Origin: a virus
Reading direction: 5' to 3' (one strand)
IMG/VR virus record: IMGVR_UViG_3300025648_000015
Location: 1-64,000 of that record
DNA length: 64,000 nucleotides
Made by a program: the position numbers and the translations under genes. Positions 9,580 to 36,701 of this stretch are shown one piece after another; the stretch's first letter is position 1, and every line of letters begins with the position of its first letter. Under the pieces are notes generated by a model. It had not been told where the DNA came from and did not search any database. It saw only the letters and a list, made by a program, of their open reading frames with translations.

Positions 9580-11961
9580 ATGTCGCAAAAAGACTGGAGT
9601 GCTTCAGCGGAATTTAACCGTATGAAGTCAGCCGGTATTACACTACCTAAGAACCCTATTGCTGGGCGTGTAGCCGCACGTGACATGTTAAAGCGTGCCG
9701 CAACACCTGGATCGATGATGAATGAAGTCGGTCCTATGGCAGCCGCTATGGGTGGCACTACGCAAGGTCGTGATCGACTAAATAAACTTGGTAGCAGTGG
9801 TCACATTAATCTAGAAGGTATTGCTAACACTCCCAATCGTAGATTAGCTGCAGCAACTGGATCAGATGCTCAATGGGCATTACCAAAACTGCATGACCCA
9901 TTTGAATACTGGCGTGAACGCACCTGGTGGTTCAATATGGAGGACCCAGATGAACAAACACGTAAGATCAGAGACTGGGCCAGACTTCTCTACACGACTC
10001 ATCATTTGGTTCCTGGACTTATTGATATCTATACGAGATTCCCACTCTTAGACATTGAATTAGTTCACCCAGATAAGCGTATTAGCGATTTCTACAACGA
10101 CCTTTTCTTCGATGGTCTTAATTACAATGAATTTCTTTATGACCTTGGTCGTGAACACTGGACCGTTGGTGAAGTGTTTGCTATGGGTTCTTGGCACGAT
10201 GGTATCGGTGCTTGGGAAGAAGATGAGATTATCAACCCAAACGATGTTATTGTTGCAAAGAACAGAGCTCTAAGAACTTATCAATACCACGTTAAAGTAC
10301 CTGAAGAGATTAAGCGTCTTATTGAACGCCGTGATCCCCCTCAGGAGTATGCAATGCTTATGCAACTTTACCCAGATGTTGTTGCGTGGGCTCGCCAAGA
10401 TAAAGAAATCCCTGTTTCAGATGTAATTATGAAGCAGATCAAATTTAAGACTAACCCTTGGAGCGAGCATGGTACTCCTATTCTTTTACGTGCTTTTCGT
10501 ATGCTTATGCTGGAAGAGAGCCTCAACGCTGCTCAGGATGCTATTGCTGACAGACTCTATTCTCCTCTTATTCTTGCTACTCTTGGTCTCCCGGACGTAG
10601 ACCAAGATGGTCCATGGATCCCAGACGCTCAAGAACTTCAATCATTGCGTGATGACTTGTCTATGGCAATCAACTCAGACTTCCGTTTAATGACTTACCA
10701 CCATGGACTAACGATCCAGAATGCATTTGGTCGTGAGAGCATGCCTCGACTTGACCAAGACTTTCTCCGTGTACAAACTAATGTTATGGGTGTATTCGGA
10801 ATTGGTAGTGACCTTATCCAAGGTGGTCAAGGTGGAACATATGCATCAGGTGCACTTAACCGAGAGTTAATTACTCAGATGCTCTCTACCTACCAGCACA
10901 AGATTGAACAATTTATTCGTAGTCGCATGGAACCAGTAGCAGAAAGACAAGGTCACTATGAAATGCGCAATGTCGGTGGTCAAATGGTTCCTGTTATGGA
11001 AACTGTTCTCATGGTTGATGAGGAAACAGGTGCTGAATACGTTGAAGAACGTCCAAAGCTAGCCATTCCAGAAGTTCGTTTCCGTAGTATGAACCTACGT
11101 GACGAGACAGTAGAACGTGGATTCCTACAGCAGTTGAGTGCTTCAGGATTCCCAATTTCCCTCAGCACTCTTGCAGTCAATATTCCAATTGACTTTGATG
11201 ATGAAATTGAATCACGTAAAGAAGAAAAAATTAAGACGGTTGTTGCTGAGCAGCAGTTCAAGAAAGAACTGTTCAATCGTCTATATACGCTACAACTACC
11301 TATTCCACCGGAATATGTACAGGAATACCAGGCCTACCTTGCCATGTTGGAAGATCCATCACTAGGAGCACAATTAGCTCCTGGTGCTATGGCTGGTCTT
11401 GTTACACCCCCAAGCGCACCTAATATGACTGGCAATACTGCTGGTAATAGCGATGCTGCTGCAGGAGCACAAGTCTACCCAAGTATCAACCAAGAGGCAG
11501 CACAAGAACGTCAACGTCCTGAAGAATCATACGAACAAAGAAAGTCTCAACCTAAGCCTTCTAAAAAAGGTCCAAAGAATGGTCCTAAAAAGAAGACAGC
11601 GTCAGTCGCTGGTTGGGATGAATATGATGATGATTCATTCGAGACGGTTACTTATGGCGACCGTATGAAATTTGCTGTACCTTTTGAACAAAAAAAGCGC
11701 AAGCGTATGAAGCTTGCTAAAGGTATGAGAATTATCGCTGACGGTAGCTACGAAAAGTTTAACGAAGACGAATTTAAGCAACACCTTGCGAATGCATTGA
11801 ACGATGATGATTCAATGATACAAACACCAAGCAATCCAGCGCATTCAGGAAATCCTATTGCTGATTCAGCTGGTAAGAATTCTGCTGGCGGAGATAGTGG
11901 ATTTGATGATCCAGCTATCATACAAACTGATCCAACAAAAGAAACAGGATCAGAACAATAA
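9580..11961 (+). CDS. Portal protein
   Basis: A 793-residue protein with the features of a phage portal, the dodecameric ring through which DNA enters and leaves the head. After a 90-residue N-terminal arm come aromatic-rich segments (FEYWRERTWWF, RDWARLLYTTHHLVPGLIDIY), a helical wing, and a segment with MQADR-like pattern (AAQDAIADRLYSPLI). The FGIGSDLIQGG and TYASGALNRE motifs near residues 405-430 are typical of portal clip/stem regions. The C-terminal 150 residues are Pro/Gly/Lys-rich and probably disordered. Length and position upstream of the prohead protease, scaffold and capsid fit the assignment. Confidence 0.8.
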   Translation: MSQKDWSASAEFNRMKSAGITLPKNPIAGRVAARDMLKRAATPGSMMNEVGPMAAAMGGTTQGRDRLNKLGSSGHINLEGIANTPNRRLAAATGSDAQWALPKLHDPFEYWRERTWWFNMEDPDEQTRKIRDWARLLYTTHHLVPGLIDIYTRFPLLDIELVHPDKRISDFYNDLFFDGLNYNEFLYDLGREHWTVGEVFAMGSWHDGIGAWEEDEIINPNDVIVAKNRALRTYQYHVKVPEEIKRLIERRDPPQEYAMLMQLYPDVVAWARQDKEIPVSDVIMKQIKFKTNPWSEHGTPILLRAFRMLMLEESLNAAQDAIADRLYSPLILATLGLPDVDQDGPWIPDAQELQSLRDDLSMAINSDFRLMTYHHGLTIQNAFGRESMPRLDQDFLRVQTNVMGVFGIGSDLIQGGQGGTYASGALNRELITQMLSTYQHKIEQFIRSRMEPVAERQGHYEMRNVGGQMVPVMETVLMVDEETGAEYVEERPKLAIPEVRFRSMNLRDETVERGFLQQLSASGFPISLSTLAVNIPIDFDDEIESRKEEKIKTVVAEQQFKKELFNRLYTLQLPIPPEYVQEYQAYLAMLEDPSLGAQLAPGAMAGLVTPPSAPNMTGNTAGNSDAAAGAQVYPSINQEAAQERQRPEESYEQRKSQPKPSKKGPKNGPKKKTASVAGWDEYDDDSFETVTYGDRMKFAVPFEQKKRKRMKLAKGMRIIADGSYEKFNEDEFKQHLANALNDDDSMIQTPSNPAHSGNPIADSAGKNSAGGDSGFDDPAIIQTDPTKETGSEQ

Positions 11962-26297: not shown

Positions 26298-27425
26298 ATG
26301 CCATTATTCTCATCGTTAAGTGACCTTGCCGCTCGTGCTTATGGACTCCTATCAGGATCTTTAGCACCTATTAGCGACCTGTTTGCAAGAACAACATCAG
26401 GATCATTAGGAACAGCAACATCAGGACAACTTTGGGTTGCACAAACTGGTGTATGGTATGCAACGAGCGGATCAGCTACCACATCAACAGCAGCTAGTTC
26501 TTACCCATTAGCTACAATACCTTACAAAGCTAGTGCAACAATGACGTTGAAGAGTGCTTCAAACGGTACTGGAATTGCTTTTTGGTGGACAAGTACTGGT
26601 AACTGGTGGGCAGTTGTTAACAATGCTTACTCACAAAATAACATAACAAGCTATACCTGTACTGGTGGATATCCTTGCACAGGTTATACATGCGCAGGCT
26701 ATGGACCAGTGTGTCAAAGCTATTACACTGTTTGTACAGGTTATGGTTACAGCAGTGCTTATGGTGATCCAAATGCTAAGGGAGCAACTACAACGTTGCC
26801 TAAGCGAAAGCGTCGTACAAAAGAAGATTCACCAAATACTCGACCCATTGATGTTCCAAAGCCGCAAAACCTTAGTTACGCACCAATTCCACCACCATTC
26901 TTCCCACCCTTCTTTCCGCCTTTCTTCCCACCCTTTTTCCCACCATTCTTTCCACCTTTCTTTCCTCCATTCTTTCCACCGTTCTTTCCTCCGTTCTTTC
27001 CACCGTATTTCCCACCGTGCATAAGTTATGGATTAGCTTGTGGAGGATACGCTACAGGATGTACATCATATTCTTGCTCTTCTTATGGTGCTTGCGCTGG
27101 ATACACAGCCAACTACACAACACAGTACTATAACCAGCTAAGCTTGCTACAATCTGTAGGTGGTACAATCACTACAATTGCAACAGGAGTTCTACAAGGG
27201 CCTTCAAATAGCACAACAGCTCAGATTAACTCTATCCAAATCGTTACCACTAATAGCAACATTACAGCAACTGCCTTTAGTGATTCTGCATTGGTAACAT
27301 CTCTGGGAACTTTGTCTAGCAATCAGACTGCTCCAACTGGTAATGTTAGTGTTGGTATTATTGATTCACCGGTTGGCGGAAGTGCCACCCAAGGTAGTAC
27401 TGTAGGACCATTTACAGCGTTATAA
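26298..27425 (+). CDS. Protein with ten (F/Y)FPP tetrapeptides between Cys/Tyr-rich blocks
   Basis: A 375-residue protein with AATGCC start after GGAG. Residues 1-120 are beta-rich and look like a virion attachment domain. Residues 121-165 form a Cys/Tyr/Gly block (CTGGYPCTGYTCAGYG). A short basic linker follows (KRKRRTKED). Residues 201-240 are nine FFPP units and one YFPP. A second Cys/Tyr block follows (CISYGLACGGYATGC, then SYSCSSYGACAGY), then a beta-rich C-terminal domain. I know no family with this architecture. Cys and Tyr spacing suggests disulfides or metal and aromatic stacking. It lies after the fibre and before the modification cassette. Confidence 0.75.
   Translation: MPLFSSLSDLAARAYGLLSGSLAPISDLFARTTSGSLGTATSGQLWVAQTGVWYATSGSATTSTAASSYPLATIPYKASATMTLKSASNGTGIAFWWTSTGNWWAVVNNAYSQNNITSYTCTGGYPCTGYTCAGYGPVCQSYYTVCTGYGYSSAYGDPNAKGATTTLPKRKRRTKEDSPNTRPIDVPKPQNLSYAPIPPPFFPPFFPPFFPPFFPPFFPPFFPPFFPPFFPPFFPPYFPPCISYGLACGGYATGCTSYSCSSYGACAGYTANYTTQYYNQLSLLQSVGGTITTIATGVLQGPSNSTTAQINSIQIVTTNSNITATAFSDSALVTSLGTLSSNQTAPTGNVSVGIIDSPVGGSATQGSTVGPFTAL
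26898..27017 (+). repeat. Tandem 12-base repeat encoding (F/Y)FPP, ten units
   Basis: Ten consecutive 12-base units encode nine FFPP and one final YFPP. Third-position bases vary among units (TTC/TTT, CCA/CCG/CCT/CCC) while the encoded peptide is almost fixed. This shows selection at protein level rather than a very recent DNA-level expansion. Confidence 0.9.
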
Positions 27426-27918: not shown

Positions 27919-28239
27919 ATGAACGGACAACCAAAGCAAACGCCTTGGGAATTATATTTAGAAAATCTAAAGAATACTTCCGAAGAAACATCTGAACAAC
28001 GCCCAGCTAGACCATGGGATCTATTCAATAAAAAAATTGGTAGAGTAGAAGACGAATTAGCTAGTGAACGCCTTGCAATTTGCAAAGATTGTCCACGCAT
28101 TCGTAAGTCATCCATGCTATGTAAAGAATGTGGTTGCTTTATGCCTGGAAAAGTAAAATTACCTAATGCATTCTGTCCAATAGGTAAATGGCAAGCCGTT
28201 GAACAAGAACTAGAGGTTAATGAGGAAGACGAAGAGTAA
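27919..28239 (+). CDS. Small zinc-ribbon protein
   Basis: A 106-residue protein. The Cys pattern CKDC...CKECGCF...C around residues 54-90 matches a phage zinc-ribbon type in which RLAICKDCP..., CKECGCFM and a later NAFCPIGKW occur in order. The flanks are acidic. A likely role is metal binding in a complex with a neighbour. Stop overlaps the next start by one base (TAATG). Confidence 0.65.
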   Translation: MNGQPKQTPWELYLENLKNTSEETSEQRPARPWDLFNKKIGRVEDELASERLAICKDCPRIRKSSMLCKECGCFMPGKVKLPNAFCPIGKWQAVEQELEVNEEDEE

Positions 28240-28919
28240 TGTCGCGTCAAATCATAAAATACGAAAGTCGTAATGGTTTTATAGATCACATGAGGCCTAT
28301 GCTTTCCGTTGTACCTGATTGGTACAAAAAAACAAAAAGATGGGTAACTGACGAAAATGGTCAAGAATGGCCTGGAGTTAAACATTGCATCCCATTCCTT
28401 GAAAGCCTTACGCTCGGTTACACCATAGTTCTTGAAGAAAGTGTATATGTTCAAAGAACAGAAAACGGTGTAATTATACGTTATAATAATCCAAAAGAAC
28501 CTGTCGTTAACAATAGGCCAAGTGCAGTAACTGATCCATCACCAGTCCCAGAGGGATATGAAGATGAACATTTTATTTGGTTTGCTAACATAACTGTAAG
28601 ACCTCCTGATGGTTATTCATTACTTTACACACACCCATTGAATCGTTGGGATCTACCATTCTTAACAAGCAGTGCGGTGGTAGACGATTATGTAATGCCC
28701 GGTGCTAACATGTCTTTTTTTATTAAAAAAGGTTTTGAAGGTGAAATACCTAAAGGCACCCCTATAGCTCAAGTGATACCATTTAAAAGAGAAGAATGGG
28801 TAGCTAAATCTACAAAAGGTCTTTGGGACATAGCTGATACTACTGTGAAAGCTCCTATATCTGAGTTGTTGAATGGTCATTATAGAAAAAACTTCTGGAA
28901 GAAGAAGGTGTATAAATAA
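28239..28919 (+). CDS. Conserved phage protein of unknown function, copy 1
   Basis: A 226-residue protein. The motif order CIPFLESLTLGY, HPLNRWDLPFLT and IPKGTPIAQVIPFKRE belongs to a phage family of unknown function that I recall from T4-like aquatic phages. The mostly beta pattern and the His/Glu residues might suggest a cupin-like fold, but no catalytic residues are clear. It overlaps the next gene at the stop (TAATG) and shares most of its motifs with it. Confidence 0.65.
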   Translation: MSRQIIKYESRNGFIDHMRPMLSVVPDWYKKTKRWVTDENGQEWPGVKHCIPFLESLTLGYTIVLEESVYVQRTENGVIIRYNNPKEPVVNNRPSAVTDPSPVPEGYEDEHFIWFANITVRPPDGYSLLYTHPLNRWDLPFLTSSAVVDDYVMPGANMSFFIKKGFEGEIPKGTPIAQVIPFKREEWVAKSTKGLWDIADTTVKAPISELLNGHYRKNFWKKKVYK

Positions 28920-29632
28920 TGTTTAAAAAGAATAATAAAAACGTACTTCATTATGAAGGCTCCCCAACCGTAGAAAAAAAGGGTATAGGAGCTATGGTTG
29001 AAATCGTACCTGATTGGTATAAAAAAACACCAAAGTTTTTAGATAATAAAGATCCAAATAACAATATGCCTGCTATGGGTCTTAAGATGTGTATACCATT
29101 CTTAGATGCTATGACAACTGGATTTTATATGTCTTTGCCACAAGAAGTTTATGTAGAGCAAACAGAGAATGGACCATCTATCCGTTGCAAACAACAACCA
29201 ATGCCAATTAGCAATAGACCTCCAATGACTACAGACCCAATGCCATCGCCAGCTGGTCATGATGAAGAGCATTTTATTTGGCAAACTCAGTATGCTTTCC
29301 ACCTTCCTGAAGGATATAGTGCAATTCTGACACACCCATTTAATAGGTTTGAACTACCATTTATAACATTTACTGGTATTGTAGACGGTGACTTTTTTAT
29401 GCATGGCGGCAATATACCTTTTAGTATTAAAAAAGGCTTTGAAGGAGTTATCCCTAAAGGTACTCCAATACTGCAAATTATACCATTCAAAAGAGAAGAC
29501 TGGGTAGCTAAAAAGAAAAAAGGAGTATGGAAAAGAAGCATGGAAAACCATCCCGAAAGAAGCTATGATTATCAAGTTGGTTGGTATAGAAAAAATATAT
29601 GGCGTAAAAAAACTTATAAGGTAGAAAGTTAA
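28919..29632 (+). CDS. Conserved phage protein of unknown function, copy 2
   Basis: A 237-residue protein, clearly paralogous to the previous gene: VPDWYKKT, CIPFLDAMTTGFY, HPFNRFELPFIT and GFEGVIPKGTPILQIIPFKRE occur in the same order. Divergence is substantial, so the duplication is not recent. The N-terminus MFKKN is shared with the next gene. Function unknown. Confidence 0.65.
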   Translation: MFKKNNKNVLHYEGSPTVEKKGIGAMVEIVPDWYKKTPKFLDNKDPNNNMPAMGLKMCIPFLDAMTTGFYMSLPQEVYVEQTENGPSIRCKQQPMPISNRPPMTTDPMPSPAGHDEEHFIWQTQYAFHLPEGYSAILTHPFNRFELPFITFTGIVDGDFFMHGGNIPFSIKKGFEGVIPKGTPILQIIPFKREDWVAKKKKGVWKRSMENHPERSYDYQVGWYRKNIWRKKTYKVES

Positions 29633-29904
29633 TGTTTAAGAAAAACAAAATATATAATGAAAAGCGTCGTTGGAAAACAATGGTAATCCCTAAGAACGAT
29701 GAGAACCAAACAAGGTACCTTCGTTTTACGGAATCACGCACTGCAACAAGACTGTTCATAGAAAAAGACAAGAATTACAAATTTTATGTTGTCTCTAGAG
29801 GAACTAACCCAGGTAAAGTAAAAGTAGTCGGAATTGCAACAGACATAAAGAGTGCTATCACATTATCTAACCTTGAATTGGAAAAAATCAATAAAGGTGA
29901 ATAA
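29632..29904 (+). CDS. Small basic hypothetical protein
   Basis: A 90-residue basic protein with one-base TAATG coupling at both ends. Lys/Arg-rich N-terminus, then two beta-like segments. Nothing recognisable. It begins MFKKNK, as does the preceding gene's N-terminus (MFKKNN), which may be coincidence. Confidence 0.55.
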   Translation: MFKKNKIYNEKRRWKTMVIPKNDENQTRYLRFTESRTATRLFIEKDKNYKFYVVSRGTNPGKVKVVGIATDIKSAITLSNLELEKINKGE

Positions 29905-30608
29905 TGATTTATTCACCTGATAATAACTTTTTATTGTTAAAAAATTATAAAGTTGGTGGGAGCTCATTAGAAATAGCGTTGACCAATATAGTTCCAGAAA
30001 ATGCTACTTGCACAGAACTTAAACCTTCAGAGTATGGTCATATGCCAAGAAACCATATATATGATAATATTGAACTAGAAAACCATGCTTCATATTATGA
30101 TATATGTGATATATTCGGTGAAGAAAAAATAAATAATACAATTTCTGTTGTCTTTGTAAGACACCCATATGAGATTGTAGCTTCATGGTATTTTCATAAA
30201 ATGAAAGAATATTGGGGAGAAAAAACCAATGATAATGCTGACCCATTTGAATATGGTGGCGGTTATGACTGGGATGCGTTATCTCTAAAACAAAAAGATT
30301 ATTTAAATAAAATGTTTTTCTATGGAAAAGAAACAGATTTTCGTTCTATTAATAGTACAAAATGGATATATGCACCAAATGGTGAAATACTAGTTGATCA
30401 TGTTCTACGATATGAGAATGGAATAGAAAACGAAATAAATAAAATTTTACCAATGGTTGGGCTGCCAAAGATTACAATACCTTACAAAGCAAAAAGCAAA
30501 TACAAACCACAACATATTACCTATAAAAATATGTTTGGCAAACAAGAACTTGAAACTATACAAAAAGAATGGTCTTGGGAATTTGAAATCTTTGGTTATG
30601 AGCCTTAA
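29904..30608 (+). CDS. Sulfotransferase-like protein
   Basis: A 234-residue protein. Residues 10-26 (LLLKNYKVGGSSLEIAL) resemble the 5'-phosphosulfate binding loop of cytosolic and carbohydrate sulfotransferases, here with K16 and the SS pair. Residues 82-96 (VVFVRHPYEIVASWY) match the 3'-phosphate-binding element with R86 and S94. Such enzymes move sulfate from PAPS to a hydroxyl or amine. The acceptor cannot be read from the sequence. An APS-kinase-like gene lies five genes on (32482) and could supply the PAPS. Confidence 0.75.
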   Translation: MIYSPDNNFLLLKNYKVGGSSLEIALTNIVPENATCTELKPSEYGHMPRNHIYDNIELENHASYYDICDIFGEEKINNTISVVFVRHPYEIVASWYFHKMKEYWGEKTNDNADPFEYGGGYDWDALSLKQKDYLNKMFFYGKETDFRSINSTKWIYAPNGEILVDHVLRYENGIENEINKILPMVGLPKITIPYKAKSKYKPQHITYKNMFGKQELETIQKEWSWEFEIFGYEP

Positions 30609-31184
30609 ATGACACTAACTAAGGTTTGGAGCAAATACAATAATCCATTTAATTTTATTAACAAAGGCAACGTAGACGTTGGTAAAATTGCGGATTATTT
30701 GTTGAGCAAGAATGAAGATAAATACTTTGATGAACGGTTAAATATAATCCACCATCAACATGGTAAAATTCTAATAGTGCAAGATTACCCCAGGAATTGG
30801 TTCTATCCGGCACCTTTCACGCCAGAATTTGAATGTAAAGATAAAGAACTTTGGGCATTAACTAAACCAATAATCGATAAATTAGAAAAAGACTGCGATG
30901 GTAAAGCAGCTAAAATATTTTATTTCTTATTGCCAGCTGGAACCAATATCTATATTCATATGGATCTTGGACAATATTTTAGTGCTGTACATAGACATCA
31001 AATACCGATAATAACTAATCCTCAATGTGAAACATGGGTTGATGGCGAAACTATAAACATGAAGCCAGGGGAAATCTGGGAGATAAATAATGTTAAACGC
31101 CATGCAGTTGATAACAATGGAACAACACCAAGGATTAATTTAGTTGTGGACATAATGCCTATGTGGGCTATAGAATCAAAATAG
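30609..31184 (+). CDS. Aspartyl/asparaginyl beta-hydroxylase-like 2OG oxygenase
   Basis: A 191-residue protein, starting on the base after the sulfotransferase stop. The Fe(II) and 2-oxoglutarate motifs are H117 in IHMD, a following RH at 129-130, H165 in VKRHAVDN, and R175 near the C-terminus; the GEIWEINN segment before H165 is typical of the aspartyl/asparaginyl beta-hydroxylase family. It would hydroxylate an amino-acid side chain or small substrate using O2. Substrate unknown. Confidence 0.7.
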   Translation: MTLTKVWSKYNNPFNFINKGNVDVGKIADYLLSKNEDKYFDERLNIIHHQHGKILIVQDYPRNWFYPAPFTPEFECKDKELWALTKPIIDKLEKDCDGKAAKIFYFLLPAGTNIYIHMDLGQYFSAVHRHQIPIITNPQCETWVDGETINMKPGEIWEINNVKRHAVDNNGTTPRINLVVDIMPMWAIESK

Positions 31185-31194
31185 GAGACAAAAT

Positions 31195-31890
31195 ATGCTT
31201 AGAGAACAATTTGAATTGCCTTTAAATCAAAAAGCATATGATGACGGCTTTTACGAGTTTCGTGGATTGCAAATAGCCATTGGTGAGGGTGTTTATGCAG
31301 AGGCTTATGGAATTGATGTGTTTTTTGAGAACATGTTACTTTTTGTAAAAGAAAAGATTAATTCATTAGAAGGCCTTACCATAATAGACATGTGTGCTGG
31401 ATCAGGCATGCTCGGCATAGCAATGGCAATAGAATTCCCCAATTCAGTAATTTATGGTGTAGAGAAATATGAAAAGCCATTTTTTTGGACTACAAAGAAT
31501 GCAGATGGTTTTAAAGAGCAAATAAATAAAAGCAATTCTAAATTCATTCCAGTGATGTGTAGTGCTCTTGATTCAATTGATAATCTTAAACATCTTCATG
31601 GTCAGGTCGATTTTATTCTTGCAGGTTATCCATGCATACCCATCCCAGATGACCTTTCAAAAGTGGATACTCTCCCTTACGATCTAACATCAGTAGCTGG
31701 TGGCGAAGACGGGTTAGATGTTATAAAAGAAATTTTAACCGCATCATCTATTCTTCTAAAAAAAGGTGGAATTTTAGTAACAACTACTCCAGTAAGAATG
31801 TTTAAACATGTAGAACCATTGCTTGATGACTCAGTGTGGAGCGAAACATTTGAATCACCTCTTGAGTTCATGGTTACAGTTAAAAAATAA
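31195..31890 (+). CDS. PrmC/HemK-like class I methyltransferase
   Basis: A 231-residue protein. SAM-binding motif I is IIDMCAGSGMLG (residues 63-74), with an acidic residue E90 in YGVEKYE. The motif IV position reads AGYPCIP (143-149) where PrmC-type enzymes have NPPY, and a later VAGGEDGLDVIKEIL matches the conserved GG-x-DGL of that family. The change from NPPY makes the acceptor uncertain. It lies 10 bases downstream of the hydroxylase gene. Confidence 0.65.
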   Translation: MLREQFELPLNQKAYDDGFYEFRGLQIAIGEGVYAEAYGIDVFFENMLLFVKEKINSLEGLTIIDMCAGSGMLGIAMAIEFPNSVIYGVEKYEKPFFWTTKNADGFKEQINKSNSKFIPVMCSALDSIDNLKHLHGQVDFILAGYPCIPIPDDLSKVDTLPYDLTSVAGGEDGLDVIKEILTASSILLKKGGILVTTTPVRMFKHVEPLLDDSVWSETFESPLEFMVTVKK

Positions 31891-31900
31891 AAGGTAAATC

Positions 31901-32482
31901 ATGGATGAAATAAAAAGAGAAATATTAGCACCAGGCATCATAAGCTATAGCAATGTAGGAGCAAATATTTCTAATATGGTTCCTGAATGGGAAGAGCATG
32001 TTAAAAATGGTTCTTTAAATTGGGCTCCACATTCTTATGTTGGAGAAAACATAAATGTTCCAGAAGTTAGAAAAGTAAAGCTTATGGGTATTTCCAATGA
32101 TGGTATAAACGAAATAATAGATAGTATAAGAGAACATTTTGATAATGCTTATAAAGCATACGTAGACGATTATTGTGAAAGGTATCGTACCAATACTATT
32201 GGATCTGATGCATACCAAATTCTAAAGTATGAAATAGGTCATCATTATAAAGCACATACTGATTGGGATCGTGGTGAGTGGTTTGAAAAAAGAACTTTTT
32301 CTTTAACACATTATCTTAACGATGATTACGAGGGTGGAGAAATTAATTATGTTGAATTTGGTTTAAAAATTAAACCAAAGAAGGGGCAATTGATTATTTT
32401 CCCTGCACACTTCCCTTATGCACACCAAGTAGAACCAGTTATCAGTGGAGTGCGCTGGGCAATAACAAAATTCTACCACTAA
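31901..32482 (+). CDS. Prolyl-4-hydroxylase-like 2OG-Fe(II) oxygenase
   Basis: A 193-residue protein. The iron triad is H119, D121 and H175, and R185 would bind 2-oxoglutarate; the order YKAHTDW, HYLNDDYEGGEINY, KGQLIIFPAHF and AHQVEPV is standard for the prolyl 4-hydroxylase/2OG-Fe(II) superfamily. It would hydroxylate a proline or other residue, or a small molecule. It is distinct in family from the oxygenase at 30609. TAATG coupling to the kinase downstream. Confidence 0.8.
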   Translation: MDEIKREILAPGIISYSNVGANISNMVPEWEEHVKNGSLNWAPHSYVGENINVPEVRKVKLMGISNDGINEIIDSIREHFDNAYKAYVDDYCERYRTNTIGSDAYQILKYEIGHHYKAHTDWDRGEWFEKRTFSLTHYLNDDYEGGEINYVEFGLKIKPKKGQLIIFPAHFPYAHQVEPVISGVRWAITKFYH

Positions 32483-32901
32483 TGATTATCCAGATTATTG
32501 GGCTTCCTGGATCAGGTAAGACCGCCCTAGCAAATGGTTTAAAAGAAAAAATACCTGTAATTCATTTAAATGCTGATGAGGTTAGGGCAACAATCAATTC
32601 AGATCTTGGGTTCTCAAACGATGACAGGGTTGAACAAGCACGCAGGCTTGGTGAGATGGCAAGACTTTTAGAACGCCAAGGTCATAACATAATTGTGGAT
32701 TTTGTTTGCCCTACGGAAGAGGCAAGAGAGGCTTTTGGCAAACCAGACATTCTTATCTGGATGGACCGTATCAAAAAAAGCCGTTTTGAGGACACCAATA
32801 CCCTTTGGCAAGACCCAATAAATTACGTTGATTTTATAATCAAAAATGGCTTAACCGTTGAACAAGAAGTAGATTGCATCATTAGTAAATACGGCCTTTA
32901 G
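32482..32901 (+). CDS. APS kinase-like P-loop kinase
   Basis: A 139-residue protein. Walker A GLPGSGKT (residues 7-14) is followed by LNADEVRATINSDLGFSNDD (29-48), the signature region of adenylyl-sulfate kinase, which makes PAPS from APS and ATP. The usual LDGD is LNAD here, and the second conserved SPYR-type motif reads FVCPTEE, so the substrate may be altered. The shortness (about 140 against 180-200 in cellular enzymes) means a reduced lid or C-terminus. Together with the sulfotransferase it suggests a sulfation pathway. Confidence 0.65.
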   Translation: MIIQIIGLPGSGKTALANGLKEKIPVIHLNADEVRATINSDLGFSNDDRVEQARRLGEMARLLERQGHNIIVDFVCPTEEAREAFGKPDILIWMDRIKKSRFEDTNTLWQDPINYVDFIIKNGLTVEQEVDCIISKYGL

Positions 32902-33009: not shown

Positions 33010-35229
33010 ATGGCCAATAAAAAACCCAAGAATAATATTACTAGAGGGTACCGTTCAACCAATAATAAGGTCATTGAAGGTTGGACTGGTGGTGAGGGTG
33101 GACCACACCCGCCAGAATATAGTAGTAATTATAAGACTATTCTATTTAGTTATTTTGCCACGAACAAAAATGGTAAAGTACCAGAAGGTTGGAGAGGTGG
33201 TCAAGGTCCACATGTCCCACCACCTTATGTAGGACCTAAGAGTAGCTTTACTAGAGCATTCTATTCACCCAATACTGAAGCGTATGAGCTTGGTTGGAGA
33301 GGTGGCTATGGATTCCAAAAACACCTTGATTACTTTAAGAATGCCATCGCTTTGGCCACAATATTGGTTAATAACCAGTCAAAAATCGGTAGAATTAAAC
33401 AAGCTTCATCTACGTCTACAAATTTAGCAAAAACCTCAAAAAGTTATATCCAATTAAGATTTGCCATTGCTCTACAAACCTCAGCAATTGTTACTAGATA
33501 CATTAAGTCAAAACTTAAATCTGCAATAGTTAATTATGTTGGTGTTATAAAGAATAGCAAGCGTTTTACAGGTATTCGTCGTGCTACCGCTAATAGCATT
33601 GGTTACGCAAAAGTTACTAAAATCACAAGACATTTTAGAGTTTCTATAGTTAATCTTGTAAACTTTGCATTCGAAGGCCGCATCGATCGATTCTTTAGAA
33701 AAGCGATTGCTGCCTATACACAATCAGTAATTATTGTCAAACGATCTAGATTCACCCGTACTGCTAAGGCATTGCAAACCTATTTAGCAACTAGTTTAAA
33801 GCCATTTGATCAATATTACAGAAGTGCGATCGCTACTTCAACCAGACTAGTAAATTCTAGTAAAACTTTTAATAGGTTTAGAAAAAGCACTATAACAAGT
33901 ATAAACATAGCAAATAGCTATAAAACAATCAAACGTATAAAACAAGCATTAGCTGAATCCACGTTCTTGGTTCGTAATATAAAATCCTACAATAATTTTA
34001 AAAGAGCGTTTGCCACCAGAGTTTCGCTTATTACATCTAAAAATTCTAACATTAGAAGCAAATTAGTTACCGTTACTAGGGTATCTCTTGTAAAGAGTAG
34101 CAGGACATATAATGCCAGAGTCCGTGCTATAGCTATCAATATTGTCAAAACTATTAAAATTGGTAGGTTTATAAGAACCGGTTCAGCTAATGCTATCAAC
34201 ATAGCAAATTCTTATAGAATTAATGTTCTTTTTAAAAAAGCCATTTCTATGGTTATCAACATAGCACGAGATGGAAAGATCGATCGATTCTACCGTTATG
34301 CCATAGCTAGAACAACCAATTTGGTTACCACTACTAAACAATCTAGATTTATTAGAGTAGCTAAATCAACCCAAGTAGGCATTACCATTGCAACAAGAAT
34401 TGTCGTAGCTAGACGCCTCGCAACAGCTAACCGTGCAATGCTCGTTAAAGTCAGCAAAAACTATGGCAAGAACATAAAAGTTATATTCACAGGGTTAACC
34501 AAAAATAACAAATTATTTAGATTCACAAGAAGAGCAACGGCAGCAGTCATTAATCTTGCTACTACCAGGAAATTTTCTAGGTTCATTAGAGTTGCTAAAG
34601 TAACTGCAACTAATATTGCATTCGATGGAAAAATTGATCAATTCTATCGTTATGCGATTGCTAGAACTACAGGGCTTATTAAAACCACTAAATTATCTAG
34701 GTTCAATAGGAATGCCAACGCTAATAGAATAAACCTTGCTAGAACCAATAAACGCCGTGCTACCTATATCAAGACTCTATCCACTAATTTGAGTTTTAAT
34801 ATCAAATCCCATGCATACCGTAAAATTGCCAAGAATATTGTTATATTCATTGGTAAAGTTGTAAGTGGTGGAAAAGTTACACATAAGAATGCTTCAGTAT
34901 TGCAGAGCGTATCAGCTACTGTAACCAAGGCAAACAACCGTAAAAAATACGCCACTGCCACGGTTAGCTATGAAATTGGTACTACCAAGGGTAGAACTTA
35001 TCTTAGAAGAGCAATTGCCACAACAGTCGGATTGGTTCGCTATGGACTCAGCCTAGTAATGAATGTAAGATCTATAGAATCTGCCAAGGTTGAGCCAGTC
35101 AACGAGGTCAATTTCTATGTTACACCTAACAACCCAGACGTTGTTGGGGAGTACACATCTGAAAATGACCAGCCTGGTGACTATTCAGAGCCTGTGAATA
35201 ACCTTGGTGAAGATGTAGTACCTACTTAA
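33010..35229 (+). CDS. Basic protein of about 29 tandem 20-residue repeats
   Basis: A 739-residue protein, strongly basic. The first 100 residues contain three related Trp/Gly motifs (GWTGGEG, GWRGGQG, GWRGGYG). From residue about 108 to 685 it is a near-regular 20-residue repeat with core FRRAIAxxxNLVxTxKxxRF; conserved positions are an aromatic, one or two Arg/Lys, Ala, a hydrophobic pair and another aromatic. The C-terminal 50 residues are acidic and Pro/Asn-rich. The repeat is amphipathic and may fold as a solenoid. I know no matching family. It begins a new transcription unit with a leaderless-type start. Confidence 0.75.
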   Translation: MANKKPKNNITRGYRSTNNKVIEGWTGGEGGPHPPEYSSNYKTILFSYFATNKNGKVPEGWRGGQGPHVPPPYVGPKSSFTRAFYSPNTEAYELGWRGGYGFQKHLDYFKNAIALATILVNNQSKIGRIKQASSTSTNLAKTSKSYIQLRFAIALQTSAIVTRYIKSKLKSAIVNYVGVIKNSKRFTGIRRATANSIGYAKVTKITRHFRVSIVNLVNFAFEGRIDRFFRKAIAAYTQSVIIVKRSRFTRTAKALQTYLATSLKPFDQYYRSAIATSTRLVNSSKTFNRFRKSTITSINIANSYKTIKRIKQALAESTFLVRNIKSYNNFKRAFATRVSLITSKNSNIRSKLVTVTRVSLVKSSRTYNARVRAIAINIVKTIKIGRFIRTGSANAINIANSYRINVLFKKAISMVINIARDGKIDRFYRYAIARTTNLVTTTKQSRFIRVAKSTQVGITIATRIVVARRLATANRAMLVKVSKNYGKNIKVIFTGLTKNNKLFRFTRRATAAVINLATTRKFSRFIRVAKVTATNIAFDGKIDQFYRYAIARTTGLIKTTKLSRFNRNANANRINLARTNKRRATYIKTLSTNLSFNIKSHAYRKIAKNIVIFIGKVVSGGKVTHKNASVLQSVSATVTKANNRKKYATATVSYEIGTTKGRTYLRRAIATTVGLVRYGLSLVMNVRSIESAKVEPVNEVNFYVTPNNPDVVGEYTSENDQPGDYSEPVNNLGEDVVPT
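33331..35064 (+). repeat. Degenerate 60-base repeat array, about 29 copies
   Basis: The encoded 20-residue units are aligned by an aromatic residue, a basic pair, Ala-Ile/hydrophobic, Asn/Thr-rich turn, a Thr/Ser/Lys segment, then Arg-Phe. Examples are FRKAIAAYTQSVIIVKRSRF and YRYAIARTTNLVTTTKQSRF. Two units (near residues 417 and 537) share YRYAIARTT, the closest pair. DNA identity between most units is low, so the array is old. Confidence 0.75.
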
Positions 35230-35954: not shown

Positions 35955-36701
35955 ATGGCACGTTATCGTCAAGACTTTGTTTATGGTGTGGCATCGGGTG
36001 TTCTTGCTAGTTCTGCACAAACTACTATTACCGGTACCAACTGGCCAACCACTATCCCAAGTGGTTCATACATGCCTATTGTGCTTAACCCAGGTTACTA
36101 TGGTGCTAGTGGTTCACCAGAAATTGTTTATATAACATCTGCTACAAGCACTGTTGCTACGGTAGTTAGAAACCAAGAAGGCACATCACCTACTAGCACG
36201 CCTAGCGGTGGAGTAACTCCATGGATTGCTGGACCACTTATTACTGATTTTGGTGTTGTTAACCAAATCGCCAATGGTGATTTCCCATCGCCGACTGCAA
36301 GTGGACAATTCTTTGTTTCAAGCGCATCAGGAAGCAATTCACCTTATTGGTCAAACGTTATCCCTGCTGGTGTAATTCAATATGTATATGATAGTAATGG
36401 TGGATCAGCTACATACATTGCAAACACCACAGACATTAATAACATTGTACAAATTAGTGGTAACTGCGTAATTCAATTACCTTCTGGTGGTATTACTTAT
36501 GGTCAACAGATCACGTTCATTCAACTTACTAGTGGCACCGTAACAGCATTCTCCGGTGGTGCAACCCTTATTTCTACGGGTGCTTTGAACGGTGGCGCCA
36601 ACCCACAACTTAGAGCACAATATAGTGCTGCTACTGCTATCTACTTGGGTACCACAATGAGTGCAAGCCCAACATGGATCATCACTGGAGACGTAATCTA
36701 A
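35955..36701 (+). CDS. Fibre/tail-tip structural protein
   Basis: A 248-residue beta-rich protein with ATAGGATAA-type start context, Gly/Ser/Thr-rich throughout, with PSGSYMPIVLNPG near residue 36 and a repeated SG(T) pattern. It resembles other fibre proteins in this genome by composition. No catalytic motif. It abuts a large adhesin-like gene. Confidence 0.6.
   Translation: MARYRQDFVYGVASGVLASSAQTTITGTNWPTTIPSGSYMPIVLNPGYYGASGSPEIVYITSATSTVATVVRNQEGTSPTSTPSGGVTPWIAGPLITDFGVVNQIANGDFPSPTASGQFFVSSASGSNSPYWSNVIPAGVIQYVYDSNGGSATYIANTTDINNIVQISGNCVIQLPSGGITYGQQITFIQLTSGTVTAFSGGATLISTGALNGGANPQLRAQYSAATAIYLGTTMSASPTWIITGDVI

Follow-up and report, generated by a model that had tools for sequence, protein, structure and literature searches.

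A cassette of five genes in a phage genome encodes a sulfotransferase (ST), an aspartyl/asparaginyl-hydroxylase-like oxygenase (AspH), a PrmC/HemK-like methyltransferase, a prolyl-4-hydroxylase-like 2OG-Fe(II) oxygenase (P4H) and an APS-kinase-like P-loop protein (KIN). The cassette is real and conserved, an artefact being excluded, and it is more specific than was initially proposed. The enzyme classes, their motifs, the fold class and the recurrent linkage of the genes are established. With a confidence that stops a little short of even, the region is read as a virion-fibre modification island, in which FFPP repeats would be the substrate of P4H, and the fibre, as the presumed target, would be hydroxylated and sulfated by AspH, ST and KIN.

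The window, that is, the whole stretch of DNA analysed, covers the initial 64 kb of an IMG/VR record that is 116 kb long. Tail sheath and Baseplate_J genes in the record identify a contractile-tailed phage, and the portal protein is about 40% identical to those of Mycobacterium phages such as BananaFence and QBert. Because of the GC content of 39.5% and two WhiB-like ORFs, both weak, an actinobacterial host is likely for this freshwater phage. A search of 50,697 phage records turned up no relative of the window at the DNA level, and PADLOC gave no defence-system reading. The five ORFs of the cassette are indeed consecutive and nearly abutting, as the preliminary description had it: all lie on the + strand at 29904-32901, separated by 0–10 bases or overlapping by one. 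Their order is kept in eight further IMG/VR viral contigs. Of these, six nearly duplicate the window and do not count as independent, and two are diverged (ST identity of 78% and 75%). The bounds first assigned to the cassette proved too narrow, however, as the upstream genes for a fibre-like protein (26298-27425), a DUF6171-like protein and two phrog_7084 proteins belong to the same conserved block.

The first gene (29904-30608, + strand) encodes the 234-residue ST, which matches Sulfotransfer_2 (PF03567) with E = 5.5e-5 and 23.8 bits, just over the cut-off of 22. It also matches phrog_3347, 'Galactose-3-O-sulfotransferase'. The 5'-PSB motif (K16...S21) and the 3'-PB motif (R86...S94) are invariant in 12 homologues, the most distant of which are about 37% identical. 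Since neither phmmer nor a profile search yielded a match among PDB sequences, a fold search was chosen. With a predicted model of pLDDT 87.6, PAP(S) sulfotransferases came out on top, with E = 4e-3, a probability of 0.97 and a modest TM-score of about 0.43. The Pfam family, both PAPS-binding motifs and the predicted fold class agree with the prediction that the first protein is a sulfotransferase, and structure prediction leaves it within that fold class. Compared with the known PAPS-dependent sulfotransferases of PF03567, with which it shares the two motifs and the predicted fold, the window protein is small and has no close solved relative. A tblastn search found no ST in phage records.

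AspH (191 residues, 30609-31184, + strand) matches PF05118 with E = 1.4e-12 and 48.2 bits (cut-off 22.6), and its metal- and 2OG-binding residues H117, D119, H165 and R175 are invariant. P4H (193 residues, 31901-32482, + strand) belongs to phrog_61 and matches PF13640 with E = 3e-17 and 63.9 bits (cut-off 27); its HxD...H site is intact, with an HTD motif and a distal histidine. With a family match and an intact metal site in each case, both oxygenase assignments of the preliminary description hold. That of the methyltransferase (231 residues, 31195-31890, + strand) holds in part. The likeness to TIGR03534 is there (E = 6e-16), albeit far under the cut-off, every NCBIfam cut-off being missed. 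A PrmC-like function is not supported, as the NPPY motif is replaced by GYPC in the window and by SYPC in a relative. Close relatives of this protein were found in the window group only.

KIN (139 residues, 32482-32901, + strand) matches PF01583 over residues 2–84 with E = 7e-18, above the cut-off, and scores 66.7 bits with the NCBIfam apsK equivalog, below the cut-off of 138.7. In a fold search, with a predicted model of pLDDT 94.2, the first 48 structural matches were APS kinases or PAPS synthetases, which places the protein nearest to APS kinases and not in a nucleoside kinase family. Residues D32, R35, F44 and R49 are invariant across 22 sequences and correspond by alignment to Asp480, Arg483, Phe492 and Arg497 of Mycobacterium tuberculosis CysC. 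In that enzyme, Asp480 is the catalytic base, Arg483 and Arg497 bind the phosphosulfate, Phe492 stacks on the adenine, and a lid (residues 552–581) carries the catalytic Lys562 together with Arg559 and Phe576 (PMC4373884). KIN thus shares with CysC and the APSK domain of PAPS synthetases the fold, the P-loop, the catalytic-base aspartate, both arginines and the phenylalanine, so that the term APS-kinase-like is apt. It differs from them in the lid, a segment of about 25–30 residues that is deleted throughout the KIN family along with the equivalents of its arginine, lysine and phenylalanine, and in the LDGD motif, which reads LNAD, the first aspartate being replaced by asparagine and the second retained. 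Judged from its residues, KIN is an APS-kinase-like protein that lacks these two defining features and may still work in the manner of an APS kinase. Because the lid and the catalytic lysine are gone and LNAD stands for LDGD, the predicted synthesis of PAPS is rated plausible at most.

Of at least 580 confirmed KIN relatives, 80 were considered, and most of these have about 250 residues, with a C-terminal nucleotidyltransferase domain (HxGH...SATQKR) that is closest to NMN adenylyltransferases. Such a fusion sets these relatives apart from APS kinases and is missing from the window protein. Among the relatives listed, the window group and three other lineages, L009, L104 and L315, have the short form. 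No separate nucleotidyltransferase (PF01467) was found in the 116 kb record. Cellular relatives were found at four loci only, two of them in Pelagibacter clusters and one in a CysN/CysC-like gene, and are not decisive. The commonest neighbour of KIN is DUF2061 (37 loci among 75 distinct KINs), for which the literature offered no functional clue.

The association of a sulfotransferase with AspH and KIN extends well beyond the near relatives of the phage. KIN was present within the fetched flank in 37 of 46 loci of ST relatives, with AspH, ST and KIN abutting in about 12 of the 46. Conversely, AspH and sulfotransferases of other subfamilies are frequent neighbours of KIN. A sulfotransferase-like gene lies within six genes in 36 of 76 distinct KIN neighbourhoods, and in 25 of the 26 that have AspH, in a set partly gathered via ST. 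The association between AspH and ST in KIN-selected loci (11/12 vs 2/39) was evaluated by a naive Fisher test, which was set aside as inflated by relatedness: after collapsing KINs, p was 0.06 at 90% identity and the signal was gone at 80%. As this statistic faded, a scan was run with AspH as the sole seed and the window's own group excluded. A sulfotransferase-like gene was found within four genes in 12 of the 22 AspH clusters, and KIN in nine. In locus L274, a Sulfotransfer_3 gene (PF13469, E = 1e-16) sits directly between DUF6171 and AspH-KIN. A weak sulfotransferase-like gene was found in L315 by reading unlabelled neighbours; this protein and that of L009 have no Pfam match, and the counts for these types and for the ST3 type are softer, since they are based on motifs and weak matches to phrog_3347. 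PF03567 was detected in 18 of 50 KIN-bearing records vs 1 of 39 KIN-free comparison records, the two sets having been gathered differently. The sulfotransferase, the hydroxylase and the kinase are conserved together, the sulfotransferases being of different subfamilies, and the slot beside AspH/KIN is filled by at least two Pfam sulfotransferase families, which argues for a functional pairing. Nothing points more strongly to sulfation as the purpose of the cassette than this swap of families in one slot.

The best-supported target, which we infer from gene neighbourhoods, is the candidate substrate encoded at 26298-27425 (+ strand), 2.5 kb from the cassette. This fibre-like protein of 375 residues has no Pfam match; its N- and C-terminal parts are conserved, and its centre is variable and of low complexity. 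In the window, the centre contains a tract of FFPP repeats (residues 205–247, 26910-27038, + strand) with Tyr/Cys-rich flanks, a candidate substrate for P4H. Downstream, all on the + strand, are a Cys-rich DUF6171-like protein (27919-28239; PF19668, E = 6.9e-6, just under the cut-off; phrog_13558, E = 1.5e-16), which is a recurrent member of such islands, two proteins of the phrog_7084 family (28239-28919, E = 5e-27; 28919-29632, E = 1e-33), the second of which has homologues in haloviruses annotated as hypothetical, and a protein of 90 residues (29632-29904) with no family match that recurs in L009 and L104. The cassette had been described as standing beside tail fibre genes. This is apt for the 26298 product, given its putative fibre role, and for an fn3 protein at 36674, but directly upstream is phrog_7084.

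Homologues of the fibre-like protein are found in the ST/KIN islands of L104, directly upstream of ST, of L009, directly downstream of KIN, and of L315, after KIN-AspH and a collagen-like gene. The fibre-like protein or its homologue thus shares an island with a sulfotransferase gene, or with one resembling it, in all four lineages with a short KIN (the window, L009, L104 and L315). The centre of the protein is Tyr/Cys-rich with FFPP repeats in the window group, Tyr-rich in L104, Cys/Ser/Asn-rich in L009 and Tyr/Cys-rich in L315.

FFPP genes were located by searching other viral contigs for FFPP-coding DNA. Downstream of them on the same strand, DUF6171, phrog_7084 and as many as about ten P4H-like genes are often found, and DUF6171-like genes recur next to them. 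P4H lies within 3 kb downstream of 26 of 33 FFPP genes and upstream of 1 of 25, compared with a background in KIN-selected loci of 131 out of 1375 genes followed by P4H (9.5%). Two of the seven FFPP genes that lack a near P4H are window relatives, in which P4H lies past 3 kb. The L009, L104 and L315 records, which are fragments of 26–43 kb with a fibre protein devoid of FFPP, gave no match to PF13640; the window group has both FFPP and PF13640. The prolyl-hydroxylase-like gene tracks the FFPP repeats. As FFPP genes are tens of kb from AspH-ST-KIN in T4-sized phages, FFPP is linked to P4H and not to ST, and the evidence that ties ST to the fibre comes from the four lineages.

In the mechanism that we propose, KIN would phosphorylate host-made APS to PAPS, and ST would transfer the sulfate to hydroxyls on the Tyr/Cys/Ser/Thr-rich fibre-like protein, either those of Tyr, Ser or Thr or, possibly, hydroxyls freshly produced by AspH. 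P4H would hydroxylate the prolines of the FFPP repeats, and the methyltransferase may add an optional further decoration. The activities, the substrate and the location of the 26298 product in the virion are what we infer here. A wider version, quite improbable in our estimate, takes the two-domain KINs of about 250 residues, with a lid-less APS kinase and an NMNAT-like domain, as mini PAPS synthetases that would feed exchangeable sulfotransferases. Residues hydroxylated beforehand by AspH would then be sulfated to give hydroxylated and sulfated phage fibres, and the window KIN would be a stripped version relying on host APS.

The enzymes might act on the host surface instead, which we regard as rather unlikely. 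ST would then use PAPS from KIN to sulfate a host surface glycan or a metabolite, for example in a superinfection block, the oxygenases would hydroxylate small molecules, and the proximity of the fibre gene would reflect a hotspot of accessory genes. ST does resemble families of sulfotransferases that act on carbohydrates (PF03567, phrog_3347), T4-sized phages have AspH-ST-KIN away from the FFPP genes, and distant KIN relatives of Pelagibacter occur amid genes that, by eye and from sequence, look like surface-polysaccharide genes. The sharing of one island by the cassette and one fibre-like protein in four short-KIN lineages, however, favours modification of the fibre, and no glycosyltransferase was found within the window cassette.

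Another explanation, which we hold unlikely, concerns KIN itself. The protein would phosphorylate a nucleoside or an activated sugar, the product being adenylylated in other phages by the nucleotidyltransferase domain of KIN as in NAD salvage, and ST would draw on host PAPS, their adjacency being incidental. The loss of the lid and catalytic lysine and the change to LNAD would fit such a role. The extra domain of the relatives, nearest to NMN adenylyltransferases, points to NMN-type chemistry, and KIN has a far wider distribution than ST among the matches listed. In Campylobacter capsule synthesis, an APS-kinase homologue phosphorylates a different nucleotide. Against this, the four core side chains that contact APS are all invariant, and KIN repeatedly adjoins sulfotransferases. 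These recurrent neighbours, sulfotransferases and hydroxylases, also make it very improbable that the gene boosts host sulfate assimilation into cysteine next to unrelated enzymes, a role in assimilation being the interpretation published for cysC of freshwater phages (PMC10914622). None of the frequent neighbours of KIN was identified as a sulfate-assimilation gene, as viewed outside a dedicated family search.

Every enzyme family involved has been described before; how they are combined and tied to a fibre protein apparently has not, going by the literature searched, which covered few subscription journals and contained no earlier description of the cassette or of the FFPP-P4H linkage. The phage cysC genes published as auxiliary sulfur-assimilation genes probably overlap the KIN family, being likewise from freshwater phages; they were read as serving sulfate assimilation, whereas KIN is linked here to sulfotransferases and hydroxylases (PMC10914622). 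Viral P4H and collagen-like fibres have been discussed in a Baltic Sea study, in which the use of P4H by viruses was called 'cryptic' and collagen in viral tail fibres was noted (PMC9301287). The window P4H shares PF13640 and an intact metal site with the enzymes of aquatic viruses but is linked to fibre-like FFPP repeats and not to collagen repeats. If the proposed reading is true, some unexplained 2OG oxygenases of aquatic phages would gain a concrete substrate, and a bacteriophage structural protein would be sulfated, of which the literature searched contains no earlier report. Phage cysC would be a donor supply for sulfation and not an aid to host sulfur assimilation. Because related phages repeatedly pair the same enzymes, genes that are usually read as contributing to host sulfur uptake may serve sulfation.

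Most KIN relatives among the matches listed are fusions in which the lid-less APS-kinase-like part is joined to a small nucleotidyltransferase domain with an HxGH motif, as exemplified at positions 10001-10753 of locus L049. The nearest relatives of this additional domain are NMN adenylyltransferases. Distant KIN relatives are carried by Pelagibacter genomes (L260, 9974-10780; L262, 9983-10411), each adjoined by a pyruvate-kinase-like gene and surrounded by genes that, judged by eye, resemble surface-polysaccharide genes. A gene resembling a decayed KIN devoid of P-loop is found in L323 (7490-8008), directly 5' of that of the aspartyl/asparaginyl-hydroxylase-like oxygenase.

Collagen-like proteins with Gly-X-Y repeats adjoin the sulfotransferase/KIN cassette in two other short-KIN lineages, L009 (7264-9324) and L315 (132-2165 and 3954-8057); no PF13640 match was found within these records. 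In freshwater phage contigs, up to about ten genes of prolyl-4-hydroxylase-like 2OG oxygenases are arranged in tandem directly 3' of FFPP-repeat genes (L140, L142, L162, L165, L166, L180, L198, L206 and others), with phrog_7084 genes interspersed within the arrays.

Downstream of KIN, the window encodes a basic, repeat-rich protein of 739 residues (33010-35229), which is kept at this place across the contigs sharing the cassette gene order. Its sequence contains no cysteine and matched no family. Among 75 distinct KINs, a small DUF2061 membrane protein (PF09834) is encoded 3' of the kinase-like gene in 37 loci, directly so in L010, L012, L014, L036 and others. Fourteen loci harbor, close to KIN, the gene of a tryptophan-halogenase-like flavoenzyme (PF04820), located downstream in L074 (E=8e-101). 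This flavoenzyme is possibly a further residue- or metabolite-modifying enzyme of the KIN islands.
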